From positions 1 to 50,639 of the forward strand of contig MHAY01000078.1 in NCBI GenBank assembly GCA_001804705.1: a DNA stretch of 50,639 bases, read 5' to 3'. This document shows, piece by piece, positions 11,334 to 30,229 of the stretch (positions within the stretch are counted from its first letter, which is position 1; the number at the start of each line of letters is the position of its first letter). The notes below the pieces were generated by a model, which saw only the letters and a program-made list of their open reading frames with translations, made no database searches and was not told the DNA's origin. The position numbers and the translations under genes are program-made. The DNA is from Ignavibacteria bacterium RIFOXYC2_FULL_35_21. GTDB taxonomy: Bacteria > Bacteroidota > Ignavibacteria > Kapaibacteriales > UBA2268.

Positions 11334-13103
11334 TTATGCTATAGGTAAAGATACAACAAATCTTGTCCCCTTCCCTAATTCACTCTCTACCTTAATTTCC
11401 CCATTGTGCAATTGAACGATGTGTTTAACTATTGATAAACCCAATCCGGTGCCTCCAAGTTTCTTGGAACGGGATTTATCAACAGTGTAAAATCTTTCAA
11501 ATATTCTTTCCTGCTGGTCTTTGGGGATGCCGATACCGGAATCTTTAACTTCTATAATTATTTTGTTATCAGATTTATTTTTTACTGATGGGGAAGGTTG
11601 TGAACCTACCCCTACTTTATCGGTAATATTTAATTGAATTGTTCCTTCGTTTGTATATTTGATTGCATTGTCAATAAGGTTGATTAGCAATTGTTCTAAT
11701 TTGAATGGGTCAGCTTTGATTAGTGGGAGGTTTTCTGAAAAATTGCTTTGCAGATTCAGGCCTTTCGTAGAAACTGATTGATCAAATATTTTCAAAATAT
11801 TTTTAGATAATTCAATCAAATTAACTTCCTGAAATTCTAGTTCCTGTTTCTTTTCCTCGAGTTCAGATAATATTGTCAAATCCTCAATGATTCTGATAAT
11901 TCTGTCTGTGTTTTTTTCAATTACATTAAGATAAGGCTTGTGTCTTTCATCAATTTCCATCTGCAATGTCTCAACATACCCCTTAATAGAAGTCAATGGT
12001 GTTCTTAATTCATGTGAAGCATTTGAAATAAAATCTTTTTTCACAAGCTCCAGCTTTTTCATCTCAGTAATATTGTATAAAATCAAAATAATTTCATCTT
12101 TGGCTTCAATATAGCTGCCACTGCATATGTAAAATCCATCGGCAATCTGGATTTCCTTTGTTATGCTTCTGTATTGAGATTTTAATTGTTTGATAAGTTT
12201 GGCTACTTTAGCATCCTGGAGAACAGACCAATAATCAGTCCCAATAAGATTTTCTTTGTCGAAAAGAATATTAAAACTTTTATTCGAAAGAATAATCTTT
12301 CCGTGTTTGTCAATTACAACAAAACCTTCCTGTAATCCGGAGAGCAGGCTGCTTAGCTCTTCTTTTTGTTCCCTTATTTCTTTAAATGATGAACTCAGTT
12401 TTATTGTCATATCGTTAAAACTATCGGCAAGTTCTCTAAGTTCGTCACTTCTTTTAAGCAGTATTTTTGTATCGAAATCACCTGCGGATATTTTCCTCGA
12501 TGCTTCAGCCAAAGATTTTATGGGTTTTGTAAAACTTAATGAAAAGAAGAATACACCTATAAGAGTAATCAATGACAGGATTATAGAAGAACTGATAATT
12601 CTATTCCTTAATCTTGAATATAGAATATCAATGTCTTTGGTATGCATACTGACACGTGAAACCGCAATTATATTCCCGTCCTTCAGAATCGGAAGAGCAA
12701 CATAGAGCATGTCTTCCTTTATCGTATTACTAAATCTCAGAGAAGTTCCAAAACCGTTGTTGATAGCCTGTGCTATTTCTGTCCTTGTCCTGTGATTTTC
12801 CATTTCAGCAGGGTCTTTTTCAGCATCAGCTACAACCAAGCCATCAGGAAGTATGACTGTTATTCGAGCGTGAATTTCTCTGCCCAACTTTTTTATGTAA
12901 TTATCAAGCTCCTGGTAATCCTGACTATCAACTTTTGTTTCAATTATATTTTTAATACTGTAGTTTAAATTCTTCAGATGATTTGTCAAATTGTCGAGAT
13001 ATTGCTCACGGACAGTGTAATATGTTAACAATATCAGTAATGTTGTTAAAGTTACAATTACAATTAAAAATCCGATGAAAATTTTAAGGAAAATCTTACT
13101 CAT
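11334..13103 (-). CDS. phoR: PhoR-type membrane sensor histidine kinase
   Basis: A 589-residue kinase. Seen: membrane segment 1 (about 7-29), extracytoplasmic sensor region (30-165), membrane segment 2 (about 168-190), HAMP (about 190-243) with the DELRELADSFN block, PAS (about 255-345), the phospho-acceptor box SNASHELRTPLTSIKGYVE with His364, N box LIDNAIKYT, G1 VKDSGIGIPK, F box ERFYTVDKSRS and G2 GGTGLGLSI. The gene follows phoU in the same direction with an 80-bp gap, so it most likely senses phosphate through the Pst-PhoU complex. No response regulator gene is beside it. A palindrome of the 13177 family is inserted in frame at about residues 496-511 (VGVGSQPSPSV), in a loop of the ATPase domain. 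Confidence 0.9.
   Translation of the reverse strand: MSKIFLKIFIGFLIVIVTLTTLLILLTYYTVREQYLDNLTNHLKNLNYSIKNIIETKVDSQDYQELDNYIKKLGREIHARITVILPDGLVVADAEKDPAEMENHRTRTEIAQAINNGFGTSLRFSNTIKEDMLYVALPILKDGNIIAVSRVSMHTKDIDILYSRLRNRIISSSIILSLITLIGVFFFSLSFTKPIKSLAEASRKISAGDFDTKILLKRSDELRELADSFNDMTIKLSSSFKEIREQKEELSSLLSGLQEGFVVIDKHGKIILSNKSFNILFDKENLIGTDYWSVLQDAKVAKLIKQLKSQYRSITKEIQIADGFYICSGSYIEAKDEIILILYNITEMKKLELVKKDFISNASHELRTPLTSIKGYVETLQMEIDERHKPYLNVIEKNTDRIIRIIEDLTILSELEEKKQELEFQEVNLIELSKNILKIFDQSVSTKGLNLQSNFSENLPLIKADPFKLEQLLINLIDNAIKYTNEGTIQLNITDKVGVGSQPSPSVKNKSDNKIIIEVKDSGIGIPKDQQERIFERFYTVDKSRSKKLGGTGLGLSIVKHIVQLHNGEIKVESELGKGTRFVVSLPIA
11591..11614. repeat. Palindromic element inside phoR, in frame
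   Basis: GGGAAGGTTGTGAACC followed by TACCCCTAC is one copy of the GGAAGGTT-n3-AACCTTCC family, with one mismatch in the second arm. It codes for GVGSQPSPS on the phoR strand. It falls between the strands NITDK and IIIEVKDSGIG of the histidine kinase ATPase domain, a position where family members usually have a short loop. Confidence 0.85.
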
Positions 13104-13176
13104 ATTTATTTAGAATTTATAAATCAATATATTTGTCTTGTTCAAAATTGTCCTTTATAATGTTTTTTATATTGGG

Positions 13177-13369
13177 GGAAGGTTATGAACCTTCCCCTAC
13201 ATTATCCACATTTTCGGATTGGGAAGGTTGTGAACCTTCCAATTTATCGTCATCGTTTGATTGGGAAGGTTGTGAACCTTCCCCTACATTATCCACATTT
13301 TCGGATTGGGAAGGTTGTGAACCTTCCAATTTATCGTCATCGTTTGATAGGGAAGGTTGTGAACCTTCC
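13177..13369. repeat. Tandem palindrome array forming the phoU tail
   Basis: Five copies of the 19-bp palindrome GGAAGGTTGTGAACCTTCC start at 13177, 13222, 13264, 13309 and 13351. The spacings alternate 45, 42, 45, 42, so the larger unit is an 87-bp repeat present twice plus a partial copy. The linkers also alternate: CCTACATTATCCACATTTTC type and AATTTATCGTCATCG type. The first copy has A instead of G at the centre, which on the phoU strand turns CAA (Gln) into TAA, the phoU stop codon. Confidence 0.95.
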
Positions 13370-14052
13370 CCTACATTAATGCCAGTTTCATTTATTTTAT
13401 TTTTTTTATGATGTTTAATTACCTCACCGTCAATTGCAAATACGACATCCTCTGCAATGTTTGTCGTTAGGTCGGCTATTCGCTCGAGGTTTCTCGTTAT
13501 GTCTATGAATTGCATAGAGACATTAATCATGGACTTATCTTCATGCATTACCCCGATTAATTCTGTCATTAAATTATTCTTAGCATCATCCACAATCTTA
13601 TCCCGACTGCAAACATCCTTTGCTAAATTAATATCATTTTCAATGAAAGAATTAATACTGTCCTTGAGCATTTTATTCACTTGTTCGGAAATTATATGGA
13701 TTGAAGTCAGAATTTTTGTCTGATTGGGTTCATCAATTAAATCCAAAGCACACCTGCTGATGTTCACACAATGGTCAGCCATCCTTTCGAGGTCATTGTT
13801 CATTTTCATTATCATGAGAATGGTTCTCAGGTTGACAGCAAGCGGGCTGTATTGAGCTATAATTACAACACAATTTTTATCAATATTCATCTCTAATTTG
13901 TTGGCAGACTTTTCATCATGTTTCATCACTTCATTCAATAAATCACTGTCTTTATCCATCAACCCTTTGATGGATTTATTAATCATTGACTCAACATGAA
14001 AAGCATATCCGACAATTTTCGCTTTTAATTTATTTAATTGGTCCTCAAGCAT
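13183..14052 (-). CDS. phoU: PhoU phosphate regulator with palindrome-derived tail
   Basis: A 289-residue PhoU. The core (to about residue 212) has the two helical repeats with the metal-binding signatures NNDLERMADHCVNI (about 86-99) and RNLERIADLTTNI (about 188-200). PhoU links the Pst transporter to the PhoR kinase and represses both when phosphate is ample. Normal PhoU proteins end near AEDVV plus 10-20 residues; here about 68 residues follow, rich in Gly, Ser, Gln, Asp and Asn and made of alternating EGSQPSQSENVDNVG and EGSQPSQSNDDDKL units encoded by the palindrome array. The tail is probably disordered and its effect is unknown. ATG at 14052 has GGAG seven bases ahead and is preferred to TTG at 14055. 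Confidence 0.92.
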   Translation of the reverse strand: MLEDQLNKLKAKIVGYAFHVESMINKSIKGLMDKDSDLLNEVMKHDEKSANKLEMNIDKNCVVIIAQYSPLAVNLRTILMIMKMNNDLERMADHCVNISRCALDLIDEPNQTKILTSIHIISEQVNKMLKDSINSFIENDINLAKDVCSRDKIVDDAKNNLMTELIGVMHEDKSMINVSMQFIDITRNLERIADLTTNIAEDVVFAIDGEVIKHHKKNKINETGINVGEGSQPSLSNDDDKLEGSQPSQSENVDNVGEGSQPSQSNDDDKLEGSQPSQSENVDNVGEGS

Positions 14053-14090
14053 CAAATTTCTCCATATTTTTAATCAATTTTAAATCTATT

Positions 14091-14170
14091 AGTCATTAGT
14101 CGTTAGTCATTAGTTATTAGTGAATTTTGATTTCTTGCTTTCGACTTTCGACTGTTAACTTTCGACTTAC
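14091..14170. repeat. Two heptad-period arrays between pstB and phoU
   Basis: 14091-14125 reads as AGTCATT-AGTCGTT-AGTCATT-AGTTATT-AGTGAAT. 14138-14169 reads as CTTTCGA-CTTTCGA-CTGTTAA-CTTTCGA-CTTAC. Both have a strict 7-nt period with different heptamers. They fill nearly the whole gap between the two genes. Confidence 0.85.
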
Positions 14171-16716: not shown

Positions 16717-17783
16717 TCTTTTATTGGTTTCCCATTATATGTAACTGATTTCAAGATTGTCTCTGCTTTTAAAAGTGCCTGCTGTGGCAATGGTGAATAA
16801 TGAAGAGGTTCTGCATATTGTTCACCCTGGTGAATTAGCCACCAGATTAAATCCACAATTTCCTTTGCATGACTTTCATCCCTGTTATTATATTTTAATT
16901 CTTTGAATAAAATGACCCAAGTGAAACTGCTTATAGGATAACCGTCAGCAGAAGTTGTATTTGTTATTGATGCTCTTGTGTCGGCAGGTAGTTCAAAATT
17001 AGCTGCCAAACTGACTGAACTAATTGTCGGGTCAATGAAATTCCCAGATGAATTCTTAATCAATGCGGCAGGCATATTATTGCTTTTTGAATAAACAAGT
17101 TCGACATATCCGATAGAACCGGGTGTTTGTTGAACAAGACCCGCAACTCCCTCATTTCCTTTGCCTCCTAATCCGATAGGCCAGTTAAGAGATTTGCCTC
17201 TTCCGACCTTTGTTTCCCATTCTTTAGAAATTTTTGTTAAATAGTCACTGAAAATAAAAGTTGTTCCACTCCCATCGGAACGATGAACGACAACAATCTT
17301 TTGTGATGGGAGTTTGACATCGGGATTAAGTTCAATAATTCTTTTATCATTCCATTTCTTTATTTTCCCAAGAAAAATGTCAGCAATTACATCACCTGTA
17401 AATTTTAGTTTAGGATTACCCGGCAGGTTGTACGTTATTACATCAGCACCCAGACAAGTAGGAATGTGTACAATTGCTTTTCCTGCTTCGGAGAGTTCCT
17501 TCTCATCCATAAAAGCATCTGTCCCACCGAAATCAATTGTTTTACTAACAAGCTGCTTGATACCGCCACCGGAGCCAATTGACTGGTAATTAACTTTTAC
17601 CCCCTTTATTTTATAATACTCATGAAAAACTTTTGAGTAAAAGGGAAAAGGGAAAGTAGCACCGGCTCCGAGGATTTCAGTGGTACCGCTTACCCCTTCT
17701 TTCAAGGATTTCATATCCTTCTTTTCTCCCGAACATGCTGTTATTAATATTACAGCCAATATCAATAATCCAATTTTTTTCAT
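16713..17783 (-). CDS. pstS: Phosphate-binding lipoprotein PstS
   Basis: A 356-residue periplasmic phosphate-binding protein. Seen: a lipoprotein signal with LITAC at about residues 13-17, and the phosphate-contact loops GAGATFPFPFY, SIGSGGGIKQL, FGGTDAFM and HRSDGSGTTFIFSDYL. It delivers phosphate to PstCAB. The start has AAGGAAAT about seven bases ahead. It follows the porin gene after a 69-bp gap that contains one palindrome of the phoU family (17824). No separate Pho box is seen ahead of it, so it probably shares the porin promoter. Confidence 0.95.
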   Translation of the reverse strand: MKKIGLLILAVILITACSGEKKDMKSLKEGVSGTTEILGAGATFPFPFYSKVFHEYYKIKGVKVNYQSIGSGGGIKQLVSKTIDFGGTDAFMDEKELSEAGKAIVHIPTCLGADVITYNLPGNPKLKFTGDVIADIFLGKIKKWNDKRIIELNPDVKLPSQKIVVVHRSDGSGTTFIFSDYLTKISKEWETKVGRGKSLNWPIGLGGKGNEGVAGLVQQTPGSIGYVELVYSKSNNMPAALIKNSSGNFIDPTISSVSLAANFELPADTRASITNTTSADGYPISSFTWVILFKELKYNNRDESHAKEIVDLIWWLIHQGEQYAEPLHYSPLPQQALLKAETILKSVTYNGKPIKE

Positions 17784-17823
17784 ATATTATTTCCTTAATT
17801 TATTTGGTAATTTTTTTTTATCA

Positions 17824-17849
17824 GGAAGGTTTAGAACCTTCCCCTACAT
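17824..17849. repeat. Palindrome of the phoU/phoR family, intergenic
   Basis: GGAAGGTTTAGAACCTTCC followed by CCTACATTATT. The trailing CCTACATTAT is the same as in the long phoU repeat unit, so the shared unit is larger than the palindrome itself. It sits between the porin stop and the pstS start. It has no T-run typical of a terminator. Confidence 0.85.
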
Positions 17850-17852
17850 TAT

Positions 17853-18974
17853 TTATATGTTAATCTGCATTGTCAATTTCACAAGGTTCATATCCGCCTT
17901 GCTTTTGTCATCAAAGTACCTTTTATCAAAATCCAGTATCAGAATATTTTGATTGCCGAAATTATATCCAATACCAATAATAACTCTGTTATCTCCATCT
18001 TTGTCCTTATCAGTATTCGGGTCAAAGTGGTCATACCTGCCGATTACTCTGAAATTCTCATCAATTTTTCCTTCTGCATAAACCGAATATCCCTGATGTT
18101 TTAATGCTGTATTTTCAGAATCTACCATAGAACCTTTGTAATTACCCTTACCCGATTCGAACTGTCCGGATAAAGTAAAATATTCATGTTCGTAAGACAG
18201 CATACACGTGTTTACAACCCATTCTGGCGCCTCCCAATCAGGTAATGTATCAATCCTAGCCTGATTACCCGAACCGAAAATACCAAGATATGACAATTGC
18301 AGACCCGGAAGTATTTCCGCAATTGGACGTAAGGTTAATCTTGATTGGATTACTTTTCCCGTTGTTTTTTCCAGGCCATGGTAACCGCTTCCGTTATAAA
18401 CACCAACAGCAAGGCTTCCAAATTTACCTGCATATTCTTTATTAACAGTTTGCGTATAATTATCATCCATCTCGCCGCCAAGTAAACATGCGGCAGTCAA
18501 ACCGAAATCAGCAGAGTTAAACAAACCTGCTCTTTCCATAAACATTGTTCCCTGCATCCTGTAAAAATTCAAATGCTCCTCAAAATCCAGCCATGCAGTA
18601 TGAACTTGACCAAATTCAATATTGGGCTTTGTGAAAAATGCAAAATCTCCGAATTTTATATTTGCATAAATGTACTTCAATCTCACTTTCATATCCCCTG
18701 TTTCATCCTGCCATGCGTCAATGGTTGTCCGGTAACTTAACCAATCGAAAACATTCTTTTTTGCCGTTAAATATGCCCTGTTAATTTTAAATTGATTATC
18801 CTTCATTTCGCCTGCATTAATATTTGCTTCGTATGACAAATAACTCAAAACATTAAAAGTGAATGTATCACTTTTCGATTTATCCTCCCCATTCATTATT
18901 TGAACCGAATAAAACATAACAATAAAAATAGCTAACGTAATGAACGCAGCCTGTTTCATTCTCAATTGTATCAT
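17853..18974 (-). CDS. Phosphate-responsive outer-membrane porin (OprP/OprO-like)
   Basis: A 373-residue outer-membrane beta-barrel with a signal peptide (about 1-28). The mature part has alternating hydrophobic strands, with GQFESGKGNYKGS, YAEGKIDENFRVIGRYDHFDP and a terminal KLTMQINI strand, as in the phosphate-selective porin O/P superfamily. Its place as first gene of the pst operon, downstream of Pho box-like arrays, makes a phosphate or anion channel likely. Selectivity cannot be read from sequence: the lysine clusters of true OprP were not recognised. ATG at 18974 has GAGGAAAA eight bases ahead; ATG at 18959 is the alternative. Confidence 0.82.
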   Translation of the reverse strand: MIQLRMKQAAFITLAIFIVMFYSVQIMNGEDKSKSDTFTFNVLSYLSYEANINAGEMKDNQFKINRAYLTAKKNVFDWLSYRTTIDAWQDETGDMKVRLKYIYANIKFGDFAFFTKPNIEFGQVHTAWLDFEEHLNFYRMQGTMFMERAGLFNSADFGLTAACLLGGEMDDNYTQTVNKEYAGKFGSLAVGVYNGSGYHGLEKTTGKVIQSRLTLRPIAEILPGLQLSYLGIFGSGNQARIDTLPDWEAPEWVVNTCMLSYEHEYFTLSGQFESGKGNYKGSMVDSENTALKHQGYSVYAEGKIDENFRVIGRYDHFDPNTDKDKDGDNRVIIGIGYNFGNQNILILDFDKRYFDDKSKADMNLVKLTMQINI

Positions 18975-30200: not shown

Positions 30201-30229
30201 TGTAGGGGCATAGAATTCTATGCCCCTAC
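30201..30229. repeat. TGTAGGG-family palindrome, CATAGAATTCTATG centre
   Basis: GTAGGGGCATAGAATTCTATGCCCCTAC is an uninterrupted 28-bp perfect palindrome (30202-30229) with an EcoRI site at its centre. It lies between two converging genes, 13 bp from the next palindrome. Confidence 0.9.

Follow-up and report, generated by a model that had tools for sequence, protein, structure and literature searches.

How did a palindromic repeat come to write the end of a PhoU protein, and does the resulting tail mean anything for this protein? REPs are repetitive palindromes whose movement is attributed to Y1 tyrosine transposases (RAYT/TnpA_REP). In the window, the whole stretch of 50,639 nucleotides that was analysed, such palindromes are found in tandem at the 3' end of phoU. 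The genome to which the window belongs, that of an uncultured bacterium, is called G000 here, and its three same-genus relatives are G001, G002, and G003.

The palindrome array and the PhoU tail

The phoU gene is located on the minus strand at 13183..14052 (stop included), starts with the ATG at 14052, ends with the stop at 13183-13185, and encodes 289 residues, divided into a core (residues 1-217) and a tail (residues 218-289). The product matches Pfam PhoU (PF01895) at 4.7e-38, and its residues 5-216 match the solved structure 1t72 at 2.7e-33. In an AlphaFold2 model built from an alignment of 12 sequences, 199 residues have a pLDDT of at least 90, and residues 216-289 are below 50. A fold search only bore out the PhoU identity (1t72, TMt 0.93). 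The core ends with HHKK (residues 214-217), and the tail that follows is predicted to be disordered. A phoR-type histidine kinase gene is found at 11334..13103 on the same strand, and the pstS, pstC, pstA, and pstB names of the ORFs near phoU are putative, being our reading of these ORFs. Between phoU and the pstB-like gene there is a 7-bp tandem repeat, ATTAGTC, with 4.9 copies (14088-14121).

The REP array (13176..13378, minus strand) consists of five GGAAGGTTCAYAACCTTCC palindromes organised as an 87-bp dimer unit, for which Tandem Repeats Finder gives 2.3 copies, 98% matches, and a score of 392. The five palindromes are 19 bp long and start at 13176, 13221, 13263, 13308, and 13350, so that their spacing alternates between 45 and 42 (45, 42, 45, 42). 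The part from 13186 to 13374 encodes the last 63 of the 289 PhoU residues in frame. The sequence-only reading had proposed an in-frame array of two and a half 87-bp copies at 13177-13426 that encodes about 68 residues after the core. The array, its frame, and its period are as proposed, but it has 2.3 copies and ends at 13378, the stretch 13379-13426 is unique coding DNA, and 72 residues follow HHKK, 63 of them array-coded. The linkers encode SENVDN and NDDDKL, as had been read.

The units alternate between an A-type with a GTAG foot and a B-type with ATTGG in place of the foot. The A-type unit has an unpaired GTAG foot, a 9-bp stem, and a 3-nt loop (-13.9 kcal/mol, z -4.4). Searching the whole window for GGAAGGTTNTGAACCTTCC with at most three mismatches resulted in 14 matches, which are seven places on both strands, five of them in the array (shuffle mean 0.04). 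In the last palindrome (13177..13195, minus strand) the loop is changed from CAC to CAT, which gives the TAA stop of phoU. The codons are TCA TAA there and TCA CAA in the other four, in agreement with the earlier suggestion that the stop is a variant of the palindrome. An Rfam search gave one match that fell short of its gathering score, SNORA11 at 13151-13284 (32 bits versus a gathering score of 36), in which two hairpins were judged to match by chance. The terminator-like calls at 13222 and 13309 belong to the plus strand, antisense to phoU, and an antisense 107-aa ORF over the array was dropped as a chance frame.

Tails of related PhoUs and the phoU-phoR junction

A PhoU match is present in 40 of 60 genomes (own included), and 30 loci were returned, 29 of these from relatives. 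The comparison of the relatives' tails took 26 of the 29, leaving out L058, L067, and L068 for odd length or truncation, and a REP-coded tail was found in none of the 26 aligned. The nearest relative is G001, whose PhoU is 94% identical versus 87% and 84% for the other two of the same genus. In the three same-genus PhoUs, the ends after HHKK are EKQIDSNIEDSSNEPE, EKQNEVEDSTEHLV, and EIQNEITIERESENINKQ, each directly before the stop. All three tails have only 14-18 residues, and no perfect palindrome with an arm of at least seven is found in any of them. Together with the dispersal of the palindrome in the genome, these short, palindrome-free tails bear out the idea that a mobile-type repeat wrote a new C-terminus. 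The tail had also been described as acidic and disordered. It is acidic, and disorder is what the model predicts, but the acidity is not new: the net charge per residue is -0.18, and the short tails of the relatives are similarly acidic or more acidic (G001 -0.31, G002 -0.29, G003 -0.17).

Past the TAA in the palindrome, the phoU frame continues open as PSPNIKNIIKDNFEQDKYIDL to the next TAA (13117..13119, minus strand), a candidate older phoU stop 13 nt before the phoR ATG. Therefore, the palindrome TAA may have cut off the remainder of an older PhoU tail. This is the weakest step of the origin account, because the first stop falls at this position in 4.4% of mononucleotide shuffles, and because the phoU-phoR gap, which is 14 nt in G001 and G002, is 1 nt in G003. 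In G000 the gap is at present 79 nt. The claim that the repeat supplied the end of the protein is thus only half right: the stop is part of the last copy, but it is a point change, and the frame would otherwise stay open through PSPNIKNIIKDNFEQDKYIDL to the candidate older TAA.

The position at this junction could also mean that the array persists because of its RNA or DNA structure, as an mRNA stabiliser or an attenuator setting the PhoU:PhoR ratio, and that its translation is incidental. The array RNA (13160-13400) indeed folds with -80.2 kcal/mol (z -6.3), and REPs are described as being located mostly downstream of coding regions (PMC3733652). However, the array is part of an open frame, in which ribosomes would open most hairpins, and the junctions of all three same-genus relatives are short and do not have such a palindrome. 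In addition, the spacing is a multiple of three here versus a period of 41 in an array on contig C24, which is outside any ORF of at least 90 aa, although this is a single comparison. Altogether we consider a structural role unlikely.

Dispersal of the palindrome and in-frame copies in other genes

With at most one mismatch, GGGAAGGTTGTGAACCTTCC is found at nine places in the genome and the reversed control at none. With at most three mismatches, GGAAGGTTNNNAACCTTCC is found at 43 places on each strand. Because the reversed control reaches 21 versus 43 at this setting, we rely only on the 22 genome sites of the phoU type with no or one mismatch, five of which are the phoU array. Palindromes with both feet, GTAGGGGN{6,26}CCCCTAC, are present at nine places (control 0) and belong to palindrome types other than that of phoU; some of these footed palindromes are found in 27 of the 60 genomes (own included). 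One in the window, GTAGGGGCATAGAATTCTATGCCCCTAC at 30202..30229 (no strand assigned), is a double-foot palindrome of another type outside ORFs of at least 90 aa. An outward-footed pair is located at C38:27242-27309, and in the array on contig C48 a GTAG-footed palindrome is followed by a palindrome preceded by ATTGG, as in the phoU array.

Two single copies are close to the phoU array. One is found in the leader of pstS (17824..17847, minus strand), upstream of the gene, and is absent at the same place in G001. A promoter-like site, TTGACA-17-AATAAT, is found immediately upstream of the hairpin. The other (11590..11615, minus strand) encodes VGVGSQPSP in frame in the HATPase domain of phoR. 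The insert GSQPSP is common to G000 and G002, G001 is without it, and the respective stretch in G003 cannot be related to it. Because G001 is the nearest relative yet does not have the copy, an older insertion into phoR that was later lost in G001 is probable; the alternative would be that two insertions hit the same site. Three REP sites within 7.1 kb are found twice in the genome (C78 and C48), for which the simulated chance is 0.006 for at least one such triple and 0.0001 for at least two, with 17 hand-counted clusters including weak ones and a width chosen after seeing the data. The three sites within 6.3 kb at the phosphate locus suggest local spread, with the same reservation that the width was set post hoc.

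In-frame palindromes were accepted in nine genes: phoU, phoR, tgt, a STAS gene, a PolyA_pol/HD gene (CCA-type), a CHASE2 gene, an esterase gene, and two Y1-transposase-like genes. The tgt gene contains a 9-aa REP-coded insert with the ends GTTG..CTAC and a clean insertion boundary, which is absent in all three same-genus relatives. The C-terminus of the CCA-type gene (L084, C38:54103-54167) is REP-coded and ends with KVAEGSKSSPIKN in G000 and with VEFNRKED in G001. In G003 it ends with KIAEGYKPFPDQK, which looks like a decayed REP form, and in G002 it is different and without a clear palindrome. The STAS gene (L080:38-60, C48) has a REP-coded tail in G000 and a REP-like one in G001, but not in G002 and G003. 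The CHASE2 gene (L087:1097-1247, C70) contains a REP and, behind it, a 21-bp tandem repeat (APKGTGF units), both in frame; the tandem repeat may have grown from the 3' half of the REP, and the G001 gene has an apparent decayed REP copy. The esterase, which has a secretion tail, carries an in-frame palindrome of another type. All nine genes read the palindrome in one frame, as VGEGS.., VAEGS.., and similar peptides. We dropped selection as an explanation of this bias: the second frame begins with TAG, some versions contain a stop in the third, and therefore the survival of open frames explains most of it. Palindromes in ORFs on C81 and C53, which do not have the GTAG foot, were dismissed as chance, as were short ORFs on C1 and at 17641-17949 of the window and a second 97-aa ORF on C32.

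These copies also bear on the possibility that the tail is a functional module altering PhoU contacts. Such a role would agree with the predicted disorder and the acidity of the tail, and the peptide GSQPSPS is also found in PhoR of the same operon. However, the tail is absent in all 26 relatives aligned, G001 does not have the phoR copy, and REP peptides are found in unrelated proteins, so that a functional module seems very improbable. Nothing was found in favour of the earlier suggestion that the new tail could alter the contact with PstB or PhoR. The length of the array or its joining to phoU might also be wrong. The assembly is fragmented into 105 contigs, and a related array elsewhere contains an N run (either a gap in the assembly or masked sequence). 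The copy number of the phoU array is uncertain in this respect, but the end copies have variants of their own, the array and its flanks are continuous with phoU as a single open frame, and the single tgt copy has a clean boundary against three relatives. An assembly artefact is therefore very improbable.

Y1_Tnp (PF01797) has six matches in the genome. In the C28 gene (L081:1037-1639) an outward-footed pair, GGGGCAGGTT(CAC or GTG)AACCTGCCCC, is in frame after MPNHIH; its palindromes are a sister type of the phoU palindrome and not the exact one. The C101 gene (L171:1132-1857) has a third palindrome type, also in frame, in the loop that follows the MPNHxH/HuH motif. Its product has no Pfam match at 0.001 and is Y1-transposase-like by the motifs MPNHVH and YYEHI only. 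Transposase-like genes of G009, G019, and G007 have their own palindromes in the same loop after MPNHxH. Altogether, 24 candidate transposase frames were read, a non-random set for which some regions were picked because their matches looked interrupted. Six of them have a REP-like palindrome in the loop (L038, L171, L162, L164, L170, and L174), two have other palindromes (L144 and L163), and 16 have none. The exact phoU type, GGGGAAGGTT..AACCTTCCCC, was not found in the transposase-like frames of G000 that were read. In L162 (G019:C178) the palindrome GTAGGGGCAATTCATGAATTGCCCCTAC is inside the frame, which is interrupted by a stop, and is found again past its end.

Origin of the tail and comparison with known REPs

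Based on these data, the array is best understood as a GTAG-type REP cluster that was inserted and tandem-amplified in frame in phoU and whose product is tolerated, to which we assign a probability of about 0.85. We infer that a REP, probably moved by a transposase, would have entered phoU close to its 3' end after the split from the G001 line. Tandem duplication of the hairpin and its flank would have generated the A-B dimer, and the 87-bp dimer would have been duplicated again. Because the duplications were in multiples of three, the phoU frame would have remained open. The present stop would then have been created by a C-to-T change in the last palindrome loop, possibly at the cost of the old tail's remainder, and the product would be a PhoU with a disordered tail of 72 residues. 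Since it comes after the folded core, the tail is most likely near neutral, a selfish insertion that is tolerated. It is hard to believe, but conceivable, that the array instead tunes phosphate signalling through a variable length: slippage would change the PhoU tail and the phoU-phoR junction at once, signalling would vary among the cells of a population, and the phoR and pstS-leader copies would stem from one and the same colonisation of the operon by REPs.

The phoU array adds a clear case of a REP near a gene end that was amplified in frame until it made up about a fifth of PhoU (63 of 289 residues). The same-genus genomes form a small comparative series, in which the REP is present, decayed, or absent (phoU, phoR, tgt, STAS, CCA-type, and CHASE2). 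How REP insertions become protein sequence is therefore open to comparison.

Many properties of the array are familiar from the GTAG REPs of Di Nocera et al. 2013 (PMC3733652): a GTAG foot, a short stem and loop, dispersal, dimers and clusters, in-frame intragenic copies, and copies at gene ends. The families described there range from at most 20 to thousands of members, intragenic clusters code for 43-82 residues, and slightly more than 10% of the intragenic REPs are at the end of the CDS; the TAG of the foot is often a stop. In contrast, the copy number is low here, the array is head-to-tail, and the stop is in the palindrome loop and not in the foot. phoU does not occur in the main text of that paper, and among the literature matches listed there is no comparable palindromic tandem-repeat extension of a PhoU C-terminus. 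The Rickettsia palindromic elements (RPE), as cited in PMC3733652, are also in frame in unrelated protein genes. Unlike these, the palindromes here are 25-29 bp long and GTAG-footed, and REP-bearing Y1-transposase-like genes are present in the same genome. The text on TnpA_REP subclass 2.4 in PMC6006769 describes "double-foot" REPs, in which one end has GTAG and the other CTAC, and transposase genes whose loop behind the HuH motif contains REP palindromes in frame. The nine genome places with both feet, of non-phoU palindrome types, resemble the former, and the C28 and C101 genes with their in-frame palindromes after the HuH motif resemble the latter, the subclass being assigned by motifs and not by a tree. 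However, the copies in the phoU array keep at most one foot. The phoU array is not a new system but a neat instance of a phenomenon that has already been published.
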